Below, in pieces: positions 42,809 through 50,433 of a stretch of 64,000 bases of DNA (position 1 is its first letter; each line of letters opens with the position of its first letter). The notes beneath the pieces were generated by a model. It made no database searches. It was not told the origin of the DNA and saw only the letters and a program-made list of their open reading frames with translations. Position numbers and translations under genes: made by a program. This DNA is from an uncultured delta proteobacterium. Its GTDB lineage: Bacteria; Desulfobacterota; Desulfovibrionia; Desulfovibrionales; Desulfovibrionaceae. The stretch covers positions 62,001 through 126,000 of the forward strand of contig CAILNX010000054.1 of the NCBI GenBank assembly GCA_903835685.1. Reading direction: 5' to 3'.

Positions 42809-44710
42809 TCAGTCCAGCATGTCCGGTCGCACGATTTCCACCTTGGCCTGGGCAATGAGCTGGCGGATGAAGGCCTGGAACAACTCCTGGGACTGGCGAT
42901 TCTCCACCAGGCCGAGCCAGGACTCCTTGTCCTTGCTCCAATCGCTGTCCGAGGGCGCGATGCGCTCGGCCAGGCGGGCCACGACAAAGCCTGAACCGGC
43001 CTCATAGGGCTGGGCCAGCCAGGCATTGGGCTTGGCGTTGTAGGCGTCGGTGACCAGCTTCAGATTGGTCCCCAGATTGGGGATGAAGCCCTGACGGGTG
43101 AAGGGGTCCGAGGTCTTCAAATCCTTGCGGACGTCCTTCAGGGCCGCCTCGGCGGTCTTGGGGTCGGACAGCCGGACCAGGGTTTCGGCCGCCTTGGCCT
43201 GGGCCAGCTTCAGGGCCTCGGCCTTCTTGAGAAAAACCTGGATGGTGGGGCGCATGGACTCCAGCGAGGCCAGGGACTCGGGGGTGTCCTCGATCTTCTG
43301 GGCCAGGATGTAGCCGCCTTCCACGGCCAGGGGCATGTCCGGGCTCTTGTTCAGGGGCAGGGCGAAGAGGGTCTCGGCCGCTTCCTTGGTCATGCCAAAG
43401 GCCTGCTGGACGGTGTCCTTGGTGAAGGCCTCGCTCTTCCTGCTCACCAGGCCGAGATCCTCGAAGATCTTGGGCAGGGGCACCGAGGCGCTGAGCTGGT
43501 CCACGGCCTTGTCCAGAAGCTTGTTGATCTGATCCGAGGCCCGTTCCTGGGCCAGGAGATCGCGGATGGTGGACTTGACTTGGTCATAGCCCATGAGCCC
43601 GGCTTCCTTGCGGTCCTCGGCCCGGATGAGATGGAAGCCGAATTTGGTGCGCACGGGCTGGGAGACCTCGCCGATCTTGAGGCCGAACAGCGCGTCCTCA
43701 AAGGGCTTCACGGTCTGACCCCGGCTCAGCCAGCCGAGTTCCCCGCCCTGCTCGGCATTGGGACCCTGGGATTCCTTTTTGGCCAGGTCGTCGAACTTCT
43801 CGCCCATCTGCAAGCGGGCCTGGATTTTCTTGATCTTGGCCTCGGCCTGTTTCACGTCCTGGTCCGAGGCGTCCTCGGCCACCTTGATCAGAATGTGCTG
43901 GGCCCGGGCCTGCTCGTCCTGGCGGTATTTTTCGGCATTGGCCGTGAAATAGTCCTTGATCTCCTGCTCCTGCACGTTCTGGTAGCGGCCCAGGTCCTTG
44001 GGCGTGAGCAGGGCGTACTCGATCTTGATCCGGGCCGGCTGGGTGAAACGGTCCTGATTGGCCTTGTAGTATTCCTCGACCTCCTTGTCCCCCACCTTGA
44101 CCTTGTCCGTGAAGTCGTCGGCGTTGAAGAGGAGGTAGTCGATCTTGGCCTTTTCATTGACGAAATTGAAGATATCCCGGGCCTGGGCCTCGGTGGGCCG
44201 GGCGGGCAGGGTGATATAGGTCTCGAGCTGCTGGTTGCGGATGCTGGCCCCGAATCCGCCCTCGAACTGGCCCGGGGTCTGCCCGCTGCTGGCCAGGGCG
44301 GCTTTGTACAGGGCCGGATCAAAGGCCCTTTGTTCGTTCTGGAAGGCGGGCAGGTTGCCGATGGCGTAGCGCAACTCGGCCGGAGACAGGGAGAGGCCCG
44401 CCTTGGTGGCCCAGTTCTCCACCAGCTTGCTGTTGATGAGCTGGTTCAAGACCACTTTCTTGAACTGGGCCTTTTGCAACTCATCGGCGGTCACGCCCGG
44501 CTGCTGGCGGCGCAGGGCCTCCAGGCCCTGCTCATAGGCCCGGATGAAGGCCTGGGAGGAAATGGGCTCGTCGTTGACGTAGGCCACCACGGCGTCCCGG
44601 TTCTTGCTCAAGTTCCCGGCGCCGAAATAAAAAATGAAGACCAGGATGATGACTCCAAAGGCTATCTTGATGCCCCAGCCTTGGGCATGCCTGCGCATTG
44701 CTTCGAGCAT
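42809..44710 (-). CDS. PpiD/SurA-like periplasmic peptidyl-prolyl isomerase
   Basis: This 633-residue protein has an N-terminal membrane anchor (IKIAFGVIILVFIFYFG, residues 14-30), a SurA-N domain, and a parvulin domain with ARAQHILIKV, GGELGWLSRGQTVKPFEDA and FGFHLIRAED. A second rotamase-like half follows. This is the PpiD architecture: it is anchored in the inner membrane with the chaperone body in the periplasm, and it folds outer-membrane and secreted proteins. It lies between aconitase and the MerR gene with short spacers, in one operon. Confidence 0.94.
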   Translation of the reverse strand: MLEAMRRHAQGWGIKIAFGVIILVFIFYFGAGNLSKNRDAVVAYVNDEPISSQAFIRAYEQGLEALRRQQPGVTADELQKAQFKKVVLNQLINSKLVENWATKAGLSLSPAELRYAIGNLPAFQNEQRAFDPALYKAALASSGQTPGQFEGGFGASIRNQQLETYITLPARPTEAQARDIFNFVNEKAKIDYLLFNADDFTDKVKVGDKEVEEYYKANQDRFTQPARIKIEYALLTPKDLGRYQNVQEQEIKDYFTANAEKYRQDEQARAQHILIKVAEDASDQDVKQAEAKIKKIQARLQMGEKFDDLAKKESQGPNAEQGGELGWLSRGQTVKPFEDALFGLKIGEVSQPVRTKFGFHLIRAEDRKEAGLMGYDQVKSTIRDLLAQERASDQINKLLDKAVDQLSASVPLPKIFEDLGLVSRKSEAFTKDTVQQAFGMTKEAAETLFALPLNKSPDMPLAVEGGYILAQKIEDTPESLASLESMRPTIQVFLKKAEALKLAQAKAAETLVRLSDPKTAEAALKDVRKDLKTSDPFTRQGFIPNLGTNLKLVTDAYNAKPNAWLAQPYEAGSGFVVARLAERIAPSDSDWSKDKESWLGLVENRQSQELFQAFIRQLIAQAKVEIVRPDMLD

Positions 44711-44737: not shown

Positions 44738-46696
44738 TTAGCGGGCGCTTGACTGGCGCACGTAGTTTAAAAGCCCACCGGCTTGAATAATTGCTAGTTC
44801 CTTTTCCGTCAAATCATTTGTGGCCGCAAACTTCCCGCCGGACCCCCGGGTGATGTCCACGGGCTGGCCGGGCCGGATGGACGCGGCCGGGATGGTCAGG
44901 GTCTCGCCCTGGGCCAGGCTTTCGTAGTCGGCCTTGTCCATCAGGAGCAGGGGCAGGATGCCGAAATTGACCAGATTGGCCCGGTGGATGCGGGCCAGGG
45001 ACTTGACGATCACGGCCTTGACCCCCAGGTGGCGAGGGCCTAAGGCCGCGTGCTCCCGGCTGGAGCCCTGGCCGTAGTTCTCGCCGCCCAGGATGAAGCC
45101 CTGGCCCTCGGCCTTCATGCGGCCCACGAACTTTTCGTCCACCCGGTTGAAGATGTACTCGCTGATGGCCGGGATGTTGGAGCGCAGGGCCGTGATCTGC
45201 GCGCCTGCGGGCAGGATGTGGTCCGTGGTGATGTCGTCGCCCACCTTGAGCAGGATCTTGGCCGTGATGCTTTCGGGCAGGGGCGCGAAATCGCCCAGGG
45301 ACTTGATGTTCGGGCCGCGCACGATGGTCACGGCGCTGCGGTCCTTGGGCGGGAAGGTGAAAAGCTTCCTGATGCTCGGGGCCTTGGCCGGGAGATGGAC
45401 CTTGCGCGGCGGGGTGCCCCACTGGGCCGGGTCGGTGAACCGGCCGAACAGGGCCAGGTTGGCCGCGGTCTGGGGGCTGACCAGAAAGACCTGGGCGTCC
45501 TGGGTCCCGCTGCGGCCCTCGAAATTGCGGTTGAAGGTGCGCACGGACACGCCCGCGCTGGTGGGCGAGCCGCCCATGCCGATGCAGGGGCCGCAGGTGC
45601 ATTCCAGAAGCCGCGCCCCGCAGTCCAGCAGGGGCTCGATGAGGTTCTCGGCGGCCAGCATCTTGAGCACCTGCTTGGAGCCCGGGGAGACCAGGAGGTC
45701 CACGTGGGCCGGAAGCCGCTTGCCCTTGAGGATGAGCGCCGTGGTCTTTAAGTCCGCATAGGAGGAATTGGTGCAGGACCCGATGGCCGCCTGGTTCACG
45801 GTCAATCCGTCCCCTTCGGCCAGGGAGGCCACGCTGACCACCCGGTCGGGCATGTGCGGCCTCGCGGCCAGGGGGACCAGGGCGGAGAGGTCGATGTGCA
45901 CTTCGCCGTCGTAGCTGGCGTCCTGGTCCGCGGTCAGGGGCTTGTAGTCCCGCTCCCGGCCCATGGATTTCAGGAAGGCCTTGGTGCGGGCGTCGCTGGG
46001 GAAAATCGAGGTGGTGGCCCCCAGTTCCGCGCCCATGTTGGTGATGGTGGCCCGCTCGGGCACGGTCAGGGTGGCCACGCCCGGGCCGGTGAACTCAAAG
46101 ACCTTGCCCACCCCGCCCTTGACCGTGAACTGGCCGAGGAGGTGCAGGATCACGTCCTTGGCCGAGGCCCAGCCCGTAAACCGACCGGTGAGCTCGACCT
46201 TGACCACCTGGGGGCAGGGGATGAAATAGGGTTCCCCGGCCATGGCCAGGGCCACGGACAGGCCGCCCGCGCCCATGGCCAGGCAGCCCAGGCCCCCGGC
46301 CGTGGGCGTGTGGCTGTCGGACCCGATGAGGGTCTTGCCCGGCTTGGCGAAATTTTCCAGGTGCAGTTGGTGGCAGATGCCGGTCCCGGCCGGGGAGAAG
46401 ACCACCCCGTATTTGGCGGCCACGGTGCGCAGGTACTGGTGGTCGTCGGGATTGCGGAAGCCCATCTGCAAGGTGTTGTGGTCCACGTAGCTCACGGACA
46501 GCTCCGTGCGCACCCTGGGCAGGCCGATGGCCTCGAACTGGAGGTAGGCCATGGTGCCCGTGGCGTCCTGGGTCAGGGTCTGATCTATCTTGATCCCGAT
46601 TTCCTGGCCGGGCACGAGCTTGCCCGAGCGCAGGTGGGAAGAAAGAATTTTCTGGGTCAGGTTCTGGGCCGGTTTCTTGGTCAGTTTTTGGGACAT
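44738..46696 (-). CDS. Aconitate hydratase (monomeric, 3-isopropylmalate-dehydratase-like length)
   Basis: This 652-residue [4Fe-4S] enzyme isomerises citrate and isocitrate. The Fe-S ligands are Cys in IGSCTNSSY and the CTCGPCIGMGG pair. The swivel domain carries GENYGQGSSREHAAL with the catalytic Ser/Arg. It is shorter than AcnA (about 890) and matches the putative aconitase group used in Desulfovibrio-type and other anaerobes. The ATG at 46696 has TTGAGGAGGA upstream. The in-frame extension upstream is Arg/Ser-rich junk overlapping the small gene and is rejected. Confidence 0.94.
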   Translation of the reverse strand: MSQKLTKKPAQNLTQKILSSHLRSGKLVPGQEIGIKIDQTLTQDATGTMAYLQFEAIGLPRVRTELSVSYVDHNTLQMGFRNPDDHQYLRTVAAKYGVVFSPAGTGICHQLHLENFAKPGKTLIGSDSHTPTAGGLGCLAMGAGGLSVALAMAGEPYFIPCPQVVKVELTGRFTGWASAKDVILHLLGQFTVKGGVGKVFEFTGPGVATLTVPERATITNMGAELGATTSIFPSDARTKAFLKSMGRERDYKPLTADQDASYDGEVHIDLSALVPLAARPHMPDRVVSVASLAEGDGLTVNQAAIGSCTNSSYADLKTTALILKGKRLPAHVDLLVSPGSKQVLKMLAAENLIEPLLDCGARLLECTCGPCIGMGGSPTSAGVSVRTFNRNFEGRSGTQDAQVFLVSPQTAANLALFGRFTDPAQWGTPPRKVHLPAKAPSIRKLFTFPPKDRSAVTIVRGPNIKSLGDFAPLPESITAKILLKVGDDITTDHILPAGAQITALRSNIPAISEYIFNRVDEKFVGRMKAEGQGFILGGENYGQGSSREHAALGPRHLGVKAVIVKSLARIHRANLVNFGILPLLLMDKADYESLAQGETLTIPAASIRPGQPVDITRGSGGKFAATNDLTEKELAIIQAGGLLNYVRQSSAR

Positions 46697-46742: not shown

Positions 46743-47012
46743 TCAGAACAGGGACCCTTCCTGGGTCGGGTACATGTTCTCTTCGGTGAGGCCGAGCTTG
46801 ATGCGGTTGATCTTCTTGCGCTTGAACTCCATTTCCACGCCCAGCCGGAGCTTGTTCTGGGTCGTCTCGAAGATCTCCTTGGCATGGAAGACGCCCGCAG
46901 CCGGGTCTTCGGCCGCGAGCAGTTCGCGGATGCGGAGCTCGCAGGCCTTCTGTTCCTGGGCAAAGGCCTCCATTTCCGCCCGCAGGGCCAGGATGTCAGC
47001 GGATTCGCACAC
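46743..47012 (-). CDS. Small coiled-coil hypothetical protein
   Basis: This 89-residue protein is one I do not recognise. It has an N-terminal charged helix (MCESADILALRAEMEAFAQEQ), then a Lys/Arg-rich segment (EFKRKKINRIKLG). It overlaps the 3' end of the chorismate mutase fusion gene by 17 bases and precedes aconitase by 46 bases, so it is probably translated by coupling within the operon. No membrane or metal motif is seen. Confidence 0.7.
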   Translation of the reverse strand: MCESADILALRAEMEAFAQEQKACELRIRELLAAEDPAAGVFHAKEIFETTQNKLRLGVEMEFKRKKINRIKLGLTEENMYPTQEGSLF

Positions 47013-48663
47013 GGCGCTTCCTTTCCACCGGAGCCGTGGGTTCGGGCTCCTTCTTGGCGGGCATGCCGTGCAGATGCGGCAGGCTATTATACAGGACGAA
47101 GAACTTAGGCCACAAATTGGTCATCTCCCCGGGATTGGCCAGGCGCTGGCCCGGCGCGCCCAGGGCCGCCAGGCACAGGCCCAGGGTGAACCAGGGCGAG
47201 GGCGAGATGAAGGGTGGGGCCTGATCGTCCTGGCGGGTCGGCTCGGGCAGGATTTCCACGGCCTCGTCCTGCAAGCGGTGGGGCTTGCCCAGGGCGCGCA
47301 GGAAAGAGGCCACGGATTCGGCCAGGACCGGGTCCGCCGGGCGGTCCAGGCGCGCGCCTTCCTTGAGGCCCAGGCTCAGGGCCAGGGCCAGGGGGAGCAG
47401 GCGGGGTCCGTCTTCGCCTTGGAAAAGCTCGGCCGGGAACAGGGCCCGGGTCTCCCGCTTGATCACCCGGGAGCGGACCTCGCCGGACTCTACGGTCAGG
47501 TTCATGCCCAGGGAGGTCAGCAGGGTGTGCACACAGGTGGCCCCGGGGCTTCCGACCGGCCAGTTCCCGGTCAGGCGGACCTGGCCGCCGACCATGAAGG
47601 GCATGGCCAGGAAGGTGGCGCAGAGCACCGGGTCCAGGGCCAGGGACGGGGTGCGGGGGGCTTTGGGTTTGGTCTCGGGCACCCGGCACAGCCCGGGCTC
47701 CAGGGTGGCGGCCACGCCGCACTGGTTCAGGATGTTCACGACCTCGGCCAGGGCGGCCTCGTGCGCGCCGCCGGGCTCAACGGCCAGTTCCAGTCCGCCC
47801 GCATAGGACCAGGCGGCCAGGGCCAGGCCTCGGGCCAGGTCCACGGGCGCATCGGTCGGCAGGGTCAGGCGGGAGGCCATGAGGCCCCCGGACTCCAGCC
47901 GGGCCGGAAGTCCAGGCAGGCTCGGGTCCAGGGGGACCAGGCGCGCGCCCAGGGGCACCAGCAGGGCGTTCAGCTTGTCCGCCTCCAGGAAGCGCAGGTC
48001 CGGGCCGCCCACGAACTTGGTCTTGCCCAGGTTGGGCAGGGCCAGGCCCAGGAGCAGGAAGAAATTGAGGGAGTCGTTTCCGGCAAAGATCAGGCGGTTC
48101 TCGAACTCCAGGCCGCTGCCGGCCGTGGCCTCGATCTGCTCCTCTTCCCAGGCCAAGTGCGCCCCGTTCTGGTTGAGGCTCTTGGCCAGGTCGATGAGCG
48201 GGTCGTTCAAGACCACCGGAGTCAGGCGCAGTTCCAGGTTGGCCGCTGCGGCCAGCGCGGTCCACATGCGGGTCTGGCGCAGGGAGCGGGGACCGGGCAG
48301 GTCCACGTCCACGGTCTCCCGGCGGGGGATGAGCAGGAAGGGCTGGGCCCGGTTCTCGGCCGCGGGCGCTTCCAGGGCCAGGGAATTGACCACGCCGAAG
48401 AGGCGGCGCAAGGGACGGGCGTCCAGACCGGCCTCCTGCCAGACGCGGACCCACTGGGCCCAGAGGTGCTTCTCCCGCTCAGGGTCCACCAGGGGCGCCC
48501 CGCGCTCACGCCGGTTGGCCGCCTGGCTGGCGGCAAGACGGGTGCGCTGGGCCAGAAGCGAGAGCAGCCGTTTGTCCAGGGATTCGATGTCCGGGGGGCC
48601 GTCGTGCCGGGAGCCGTGAAAGCCGCCGGGAGAACGCGGTCGTCCTTTGAAGTCGTTGGGCAT
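46996..48663 (-). CDS. Chorismate mutase fused to an EPSP-synthase-like domain
   Basis: This 555-residue protein has an N-terminal AroQ-type chorismate mutase-like helical segment (DIESLDKRLLSLLAQRTRLA..., about residues 25-95). It is followed by about 430 residues of the EPSP synthase fold (NSLNFFLLLGLALPNLG..., ending GMTNL-like motifs such as EMTNLWPKFF). The EPSPS signature LFLGNAGTAxRPL is replaced by IFAGNDSLNFFLLLG, and other substrate-binding residues look altered. The second domain may therefore be non-catalytic or have a new substrate. It heads the minus-strand operon and is divergent from ffh. A regulatory or modified aromatic-pathway role is possible. Confidence 0.72.
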   Translation of the reverse strand: MPNDFKGRPRSPGGFHGSRHDGPPDIESLDKRLLSLLAQRTRLAASQAANRRERGAPLVDPEREKHLWAQWVRVWQEAGLDARPLRRLFGVVNSLALEAPAAENRAQPFLLIPRRETVDVDLPGPRSLRQTRMWTALAAAANLELRLTPVVLNDPLIDLAKSLNQNGAHLAWEEEQIEATAGSGLEFENRLIFAGNDSLNFFLLLGLALPNLGKTKFVGGPDLRFLEADKLNALLVPLGARLVPLDPSLPGLPARLESGGLMASRLTLPTDAPVDLARGLALAAWSYAGGLELAVEPGGAHEAALAEVVNILNQCGVAATLEPGLCRVPETKPKAPRTPSLALDPVLCATFLAMPFMVGGQVRLTGNWPVGSPGATCVHTLLTSLGMNLTVESGEVRSRVIKRETRALFPAELFQGEDGPRLLPLALALSLGLKEGARLDRPADPVLAESVASFLRALGKPHRLQDEAVEILPEPTRQDDQAPPFISPSPWFTLGLCLAALGAPGQRLANPGEMTNLWPKFFVLYNSLPHLHGMPAKKEPEPTAPVERKRRVRIR

Positions 48664-48833
48664 GAAGTTTAGATCCTCGGGTGAAAGATAAGGACAAAGC
48701 CCATAGCCTGAAAACACAGCGGGGGCAAGGCCGGGAAAAGGGGCTTTCCCGGCAGTCGCTTGGGGCTTGCGGGAGGGGCGGCGACAGGCATCGTCAGCAA
48801 GGCGGCGATGAAAAAAAGGGTGGAAATCCGCCC

Positions 48834-48918: not shown

Positions 48919-50433
48919 TTGTTCGACAGCTTGACCGACCGTTTGACGGAGACCTTTCGCAAGTTCGCGGGCCGCGCCCGGCTTGACGAGACCAACATCC
49001 AGGAAGGCCTGCGCGATGTGCGCCTGGCCCTTCTGGAGGCCGACGTCAATTTCAAGGTGGTCAAGGATTTCGTGGAGCGCGTCAAGCAGCGCGCCCTGGG
49101 TCAGGAGGTGCTCAAAAGCGTCTCTCCGGGCCAGCAGGTGGTCAAGGTGGTCCACGACGAACTGGTGGACCTCCTGGGCGGAACGAACACCGCGCTCGAC
49201 CTGCGCGGGGCCGTGCCCGCAAGCATCATGCTGGTGGGCCTCCAGGGCTCGGGCAAGACCACCACGGCGGCCAAGCTGGCCCTGTTCCTGCGCCGGGAAA
49301 AGAAGATGAAGCCCTACCTGGTCCCGGCCGACGTGTATCGCCCGGCGGCCATCGACCAGTTGCACACCCTGGCCCGCCAGTTGGACATCCCGGCCTACCC
49401 GTCCACCCCGGACATGAATCCCGTGGACATCTGCGTGGACGCCGTGGAAAAGGCCCGGGAGCTGGGCTGCACCTTGGTGCTCTTTGACACGGCCGGCCGC
49501 CTGCACATCGACGAGCCCCTGATGGACGAACTGGTGGCCATCCGGCGCGGCGCGTCCCCCCAGGAAATTTTGTTCGTGGCCGACGCCATGACCGGCCAGG
49601 ACGCCGTGACCGTGGCCCAGAGCTTCAACGAGCGTCTGGACATCACCGGCGTGGTCCTGACCAAGATGGACGGCGACGCCCGGGGCGGCGCGGCCCTGTC
49701 CATCAAGTCCGTGACCGGCAAGCCCATCAAGTTCGTGGGCCTGGGCGAAAAGCTCTCCGAACTGGAGATTTTCCACCCGGATCGCGCGGCCAGCCGCATC
49801 CTGGGCATGGGCGACGTGCTCACCCTCATGGAGAAGGCCCAGGGGAGCATCGACGCGGCCGAGGCCGAGGCCCTCACGCGCAAGATGGCCAAGGCCCAGT
49901 TTGACCTGGAGGATTTCCGCACCCAGATGCGCCGTTTGAAGACCCTAGGCTCTCTGGACGGGCTCCTCAAGATGATCCCCGGGGTGAGTCAACTGCGGGC
50001 CAAGCTGGGCGAGGTCAGCATGCCGGAGAAGGAGCTGTCCCGTACCGAGGCCATCATCAACTCCATGACCATGGACGAGCGCCGCCGCCCGGCCATCATC
50101 AACGTCAGCCGCCGCACGCGCATCGCCAAGGGCTCGGGCGTGGATCTCGCGGCCGTGAACCAGCTGCTCAAGCAGTTCGAGCAGATGAACAAGATGATGA
50201 AGAAGGTGCTCGGCGGGGGCAAGATGCCGGCCATGCCCAAGATGGGCAAAGGCCTGGGGCAGGGCATGGGGGCTGGAATGGGCCTGCCCCCGGGCATGGG
50301 CCTGCCTCCAGGCATGGGCATGGACGGGATGGATGGCAGCCAGCCGTCGGCCAAGAAGGAACTCAGCAAGAAGACCCTTTTGGCCCGCAAGAAAAAGAAG
50401 CTTTCCAAAAAACAACGTAAAAAACGCTCATAA
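48919..50433 (+). CDS. ffh: Signal recognition particle protein Ffh
   Basis: This 504-residue SRP54 begins at TTG (FDSLTDRLTETFRKF start), with an upstream G/A-rich stretch as ribosome site. The N and G domains show GLQGSGKTTTAAKL, DVYRPAA, DTAGRL and TKMDGDARGG. The M domain is Met-rich and binds signal peptides and 4.5S RNA. The C-terminus is extended by an 18-bp tandem repeat (MGLPPG twice) and a Lys-rich tail (KKLSKKQRKKRS), longer than the usual 450-460 residues. It targets membrane proteins co-translationally. It heads the rpsP-rimM-trmD-rplS operon. Confidence 0.97.
   Translation: MFDSLTDRLTETFRKFAGRARLDETNIQEGLRDVRLALLEADVNFKVVKDFVERVKQRALGQEVLKSVSPGQQVVKVVHDELVDLLGGTNTALDLRGAVPASIMLVGLQGSGKTTTAAKLALFLRREKKMKPYLVPADVYRPAAIDQLHTLARQLDIPAYPSTPDMNPVDICVDAVEKARELGCTLVLFDTAGRLHIDEPLMDELVAIRRGASPQEILFVADAMTGQDAVTVAQSFNERLDITGVVLTKMDGDARGGAALSIKSVTGKPIKFVGLGEKLSELEIFHPDRAASRILGMGDVLTLMEKAQGSIDAAEAEALTRKMAKAQFDLEDFRTQMRRLKTLGSLDGLLKMIPGVSQLRAKLGEVSMPEKELSRTEAIINSMTMDERRRPAIINVSRRTRIAKGSGVDLAAVNQLLKQFEQMNKMMKKVLGGGKMPAMPKMGKGLGQGMGAGMGLPPGMGLPPGMGMDGMDGSQPSAKKELSKKTLLARKKKKLSKKQRKKRS
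50278..50313 (+). repeat. 18-bp tandem repeat in ffh
   Basis: ATGGGCCTGCCCCCGGGC is followed by ATGGGCCTGCCTCCAGGC, differing by two bases and encoding MGLPPG twice in the C-terminal tail of Ffh. Confidence 0.9.

Follow-up and report, generated by a model that had tools for sequence, protein, structure and literature searches.

Results

The window, a stretch of 64,000 nucleotides of bacterial DNA, carries a gene in which an AroQ chorismate-mutase-like domain is fused to a complete EPSP-synthase (EPSPS) fold. This fusion belongs to a single vertically inherited family that is present in nearly all Desulfovibrionales and is under purifying selection, and neither the aromatic pathway nor sulfate activation explains its retention. 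Our combined findings suggest that it is probably an order-specific pseudoenzyme, which has kept both folds, has lost both sets of catalytic residues and acts by binding.

Two shikimate-type folds in one protein

The fusion gene lies on the reverse strand (46996–48663, ATG start, stop codon included) and encodes 555 amino acids, with a GAGG Shine-Dalgarno-like sequence ahead of the start codon at 48675–48678. The open reading frame is supported by near-full-length matches in 107 of the 120 Desulfovibrionales genomes searched. Residues 24–100 (48364–48594, reverse strand) were assigned as an AroQ chorismate-mutase-like domain from Pfam, a structure match and a residue alignment. The CM_2 model (PF01817) matches residues 26–92 at 37.4 bits, above its cut-off of 27, and the domain folded alone matches the three-helix E. 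coli chorismate mutase 1ecm with a TM score of 0.72. Foldseek E-values for this domain were weak (0.025 only) because it is small, and nearly all of about the top 40 matches were chorismate mutases or their relatives.

The EPSPS fold spans residues 106–532 (47068–48348, reverse strand). Single-sequence queries (Pfam, PDB phmmer) barely detect it, and a family profile is required: the Pfam EPSP_synthase model did not match the window protein, either alone or in a scan of its own genome, and a first contig scan of genomes with the lone window protein as query gave no matches. A profile built from 32 relatives matches solved EPSPS structures across the whole domain (4e-29), and an hhalign comparison of 94 relatives with a set of AroA proteins gave 5.6e-38 over 410 columns. 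AlphaFold, supplied with 27 sequences, returned a model with a pLDDT of 86 and a pTM of 0.81, in which residues 106–532 were placed on solved EPSPS by Foldseek and VIA-align (Z 36–37, rmsd ~3 Å) at 14–18% sequence identity. The predicted structure thus contains the two-domain EPSPS fold of ~425 residues. Pfam CM_2, the family profile, hhalign and the predicted structure therefore confirm the preliminary description of this protein as a chorismate mutase domain fused to an EPSPS-like one. Existing Pfam and NCBIfam models match the two parts separately, and none covers the fusion family.

Both catalytic sites have been lost

The preliminary description also held that the EPSPS active-site motif is missing, and alignment of the ligand-binding and catalytic positions bore this out. 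In E. coli AroA numbering, the family consensus differs at K22, S23, R27, D49, G96, T97, R124, S169, S170, Q171, S197, Y200, D313, K340, E341, R344, H385, R386 and K411, columns that hardly vary, if at all, among 21 real AroA proteins. None of nine EPSPS catalytic residues was found at the aligned column in 67 of 94 family members, one in 25 and two in 2. Single old residues survive by column in a few members, for example the aspartate of D313 in 20 and the glutamate of E341 in 12. By its catalytic and ligand residues, the family thus falls outside EPSP synthase.

Conservation has left the pocket as well. Pocket-equivalent columns stand at the 38th conservation percentile in the family as opposed to the 87th in real AroA, and when one column of slack was allowed they were no better conserved than random columns, so that binding of a new substrate by the former EPSPS cleft was not supported. 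The strongest conservation lies outside the old pocket, at P113, R241, P253, E257 and P519, which are shared by essentially all members, with G195, L223, P424, K161 and N510 nearly invariant.

Catalytic residues are missing from the mutase domain too, a point absent from the preliminary description. The whole AroQ set (R11, R28, K39, R51, E52 and Q88) is complete in none of the 94 members, and only two of its positions, those matching Arg28 and Glu52, never vary (94/94). Arg occupies the Arg11 column in 6/94 members and Gln the Gln88 column in 13/94, while the Lys39 column is mostly Arg or gap. At the Arg51 column, Arg falls outside the seven most frequent residues; of the first 50 members, the window's protein alone has it.

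The low-confidence C-terminal tail, which is probably disordered, carries a conserved basic motif at its very end: its usual form, seen in the majority of members, is RRRI(K/R)(I/V), and almost all others have a close variant. The window's protein has RKRRVRIR there (residues 548–555; 46999–47022, reverse strand). A search for the same C-terminal motif in the window and in loci L054–L099 matched only family members. Some genera have R/G-rich N-terminal extensions, in which the start codons are uncertain.

A single family under purifying selection

Besides the near-full-length matches, the remaining genomes of the order gave weaker matches, which we read as AroA-type proteins or fragments; in the window's own family, the fusion was present in 83 of 99 genomes. 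In a phylum-wide sample of 247 genomes, searched at E up to 1e-25, matches from families other than the window's began no earlier than profile position 78, as those of canonical AroA do, and the fusion was not found beyond the Desulfovibrionales. In a phylogenetic tree, the members grouped as a single clade, set off from AroA by a long stem. The resident AroA proteins of Desulfovibrionales, such as that of locus L003 on contig C8 of the window's genome, grouped separately from other Desulfobacterota AroA in the same tree.

For pairs of close relatives in which the estimate converged, dN/dS was 0.015–0.14 in both domains. Together with a full-length fusion open reading frame in a genome with a chromosome of only 1.46 Mb (G046; 1,457,619 bases), this led us to reject a decaying pseudogene. 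By sequence and predicted structure, the family thus combines a kept fold, lost catalytic residues and purifying selection, as expected of a pseudoenzyme.

The fusion heads a conserved operon

The end of the fusion gene is overlapped by 17 nt by a gene for a small helical protein with a GTG start (46743–47012), which accompanies the fusion gene at 87 of 96 loci. Short gaps lead on to an aconitase gene (44738–46696) and to one for a PpiD/SurA-like peptidyl-prolyl isomerase (42809–44710), the final gene of the conserved run; both were assigned from Pfam and conserved gene order, and all three genes are on the reverse strand. The divergent neighbor, identified by locus comparison and serving as context only, is ffh (48919–50433, forward strand). 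This gene order (fusion, small protein, aconitase, PpiD) is widely repeated in Desulfovibrionales, including families beyond the window's. Since the genes are closely spaced and their arrangement is conserved across the order, the operon with a small protein, aconitase and a periplasmic foldase, as described from the sequence earlier, is sound. In L035, L040 and L049, an aminotransferase gene (named by eye) lies between the fusion/small-protein pair and an ffh-rpsP-rimM cluster.

The small helical proteins form a family of ~75–90 amino acids that is without an accepted Pfam model, occurs widely across the order and adjoins aconitase and often sat. We considered and rejected the small protein as an obligate partner of the fusion. 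It persists in genomes that lack the fusion, where its neighbor is sat, aconitase or a gene that by eye resembles aldehyde dehydrogenase, and no copy of it was found next to the fusion in 9 of the 96 loci.

Neither sulfate activation nor the aromatic pathway explains retention

Genes of sulfate reduction are frequent neighbors: sat or aprB adjoins the fusion, upstream on the same strand or divergently, in 30 of 55 well-flanked loci from several families of the order. In several of loci L034–L099 (e.g., L054, L080, L092) the ppiD-acn-small-fusion run is joined with sat, aprBA and qmoA. The window's genome has sat on contig C37 and aprA on contig C17, both apart from the contig with the fusion. 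The fusion is not confined to genomes with sat and aprA. It was kept in 25 of the 26 genomes without sat and full-length aprA, 16 of these 25 being at least 95% complete, and 14 of the 16 genomes without the fusion have both genes. The role in sulfate reduction suggested by gene order is thus not required, and adjacency to sat and apr is context rather than a requirement. Because the fusion persists in genomes without these genes, sulfate activation cannot be its only reason to exist.

The same holds for aromatic biosynthesis. As to whether a separate aroA exists, the window's genome has an intact one on contig C8, beside pheA (encoding a fused chorismate mutase and prephenate dehydratase, CM-PDT) and a tyrA-like gene, with murA on contig C9. 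Two genomes, G046 (99% complete) and G011 (98%), keep the full-length fusion (loci L050 and L045, respectively), and in these 98–99% complete assemblies we found no AroA, no chorismate synthase (AroC) and no chorismate mutase match. Their sole EPSPS-family gene is MurA, 62–66% identical to that of the window's genome. The fusion therefore occurs where the shikimate pathway is absent, so that this pathway cannot be its only reason to exist, and the allosteric role that had been proposed for the second domain was not supported for this pathway.

A probable orthologue with published mutants

Desulfovibrio alaskensis G20 has a gene annotated as EPSP synthase, Dde_1106 (PMC5193443), whose tag is three below that of aprB (Dde_1109) and four below that of aprA (Dde_1110) (PMC10133479). 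In the loci of relatives the fusion likewise sits near aprBA, and several relatives at such loci exceed the Pfam EPSPS cut-off, which would explain the annotation. By annotation and position, Dde_1106 is a probable orthologue of the fusion. Its pooled transposon mutants were viable. In phosphate-limited growth that lacked yeast extract they scored −0.75, as compared with −4.60 for a histidine-pathway mutant (Dde_1008), and in stationary phase −1.04 to −2.41, worst after 10 days in phosphate-replete medium (PMC5193443). These scores argue against an essential biosynthetic role and for one in stationary phase: mutants in the probable orthologue are not auxotrophs, and the gene is dispensable and matters most in stationary phase, with polar effects on the downstream gene possible. 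An uncharacterized protein of D. vulgaris seen on electrodes, DVU0842 (PMC11705803), may be the product of the fusion gene or of its small neighbor. Our search, covering part of the literature, found no description of the fusion family.

Discussion

Our computations show that a single fusion event, no later than the base of the Desulfovibrionales, brought together the AroQ mutase fold and the complete EPSPS fold, that the catalytic residues of both enzymes were lost, and that the gene has since been kept by vertical inheritance under purifying selection. We infer that the fusion works by binding rather than by its ancestral chemistry. The AroQ helical bundle, judging from its relatives, may be a dimerization module; the EPSPS fold, with its invariant residues away from the former pocket, would be the scaffold; and the conserved basic C-terminal motif may be where a protein or RNA partner docks. 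The single published mutant data set, from the probable orthologue, suggests that the fusion may support stationary-phase fitness and not biosynthesis. RNA 3′-phosphate cyclase belongs to the same superfamily as the EPSPS fold. This relationship, the basic C-terminal motif and the R/G-rich N-terminal extensions raise the possibility of RNA binding, and we tentatively suggest a more specific reading, that of an EPSPS fold turned binding scaffold, possibly RNA-binding, which supports stationary-phase survival in Desulfovibrionales.

Several other explanations were weighed. The fusion could be a new enzyme, with a different active site and substrate on the EPSPS fold and the mutase domain acting as a regulator or in dimerization. 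Purifying selection would fit such an enzyme, and so would the charged residues R241, E257, K161 and R255, which are invariant or nearly so and which, with E227, could form a new active site. However, the ancestral pocket columns are not conserved, the invariant positions are mostly Pro, Gly and Leu, as structure would need, and genomic context suggests no substrate, which makes a new enzyme unlikely. A role as an accessory factor in activating sulfate or reducing APS (alongside Sat, AprBA and Qmo) would account for the recurrent adjacency to sat and aprB, but presence and absence of the fusion do not follow those of sat and aprA, and in the window's own genome these genes are on other contigs; we regard such a role as quite improbable.

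The idea that the fusion regulates aromatic amino-acid synthesis, allosterically or otherwise, draws on the descent of both domains from shikimate-pathway enzymes and on the kept Arg28 and Glu52 of the mutase site. It has very little likelihood given a fusion that is retained without AroA, AroC and PheA in two genomes, lies outside any aromatic operon in the loci examined, and has lost Arg11, Arg51 and mostly Gln88. A working bifunctional chorismate mutase–EPSP synthase, which only fold and annotation favor, is extremely improbable: it is already contradicted by the loss of catalytic residues in both domains, the genome has separate intact aroA and pheA genes, and mutants in the probable orthologue are not auxotrophic.

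The fusion, a probable binding pseudoenzyme, is widespread and conserved among sulfate reducers and related bacteria. It offers a clear example of an enzyme fold that has outlived its own chemistry across the history of an order and is retained even in two genomes without the original pathway. The annotation of at least one probable member as EPSP synthase can mislead metabolic models and gap-filling. Function is directly testable, because the probable orthologue can be mutated without loss of viability in a sulfate reducer amenable to genetics.

Among known systems, the fusion resembles EPSP synthase (AroA, PF00275) in the complete two-domain fold (Z 36–37, 16–18% identity) and differs from it in its replaced active-site residues, its unconserved pocket and its retention where the shikimate pathway is absent. 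With AroQ chorismate mutase (PF01817; E. coli PheA mutase domain, 1ecm) it shares the three-helix fold and the counterparts of Arg28 and Glu52, but it is without Arg11 and Arg51, Lys39 is mostly Arg or gapped and Gln88 is mostly lost. The AroQ-like domains of DAHP synthases (Bacillus 5gmu, Geobacillus 5j6f), found by structure search, likewise pair an AroQ fold with a second shikimate-type domain; their partner is DAHP synthase, whereas that of the fusion is an EPSPS fold without its ancestral active site. Finally, EPSPS domains are also fused in the prephenate dehydrogenase–AroA (PRK14806) and AroA–cytidylate kinase (PRK11860) proteins, whose models a few family members match weakly. In these, unlike the Desulfovibrionales family, the partner domain is a different one and the EPSPS part is named as an enzyme.
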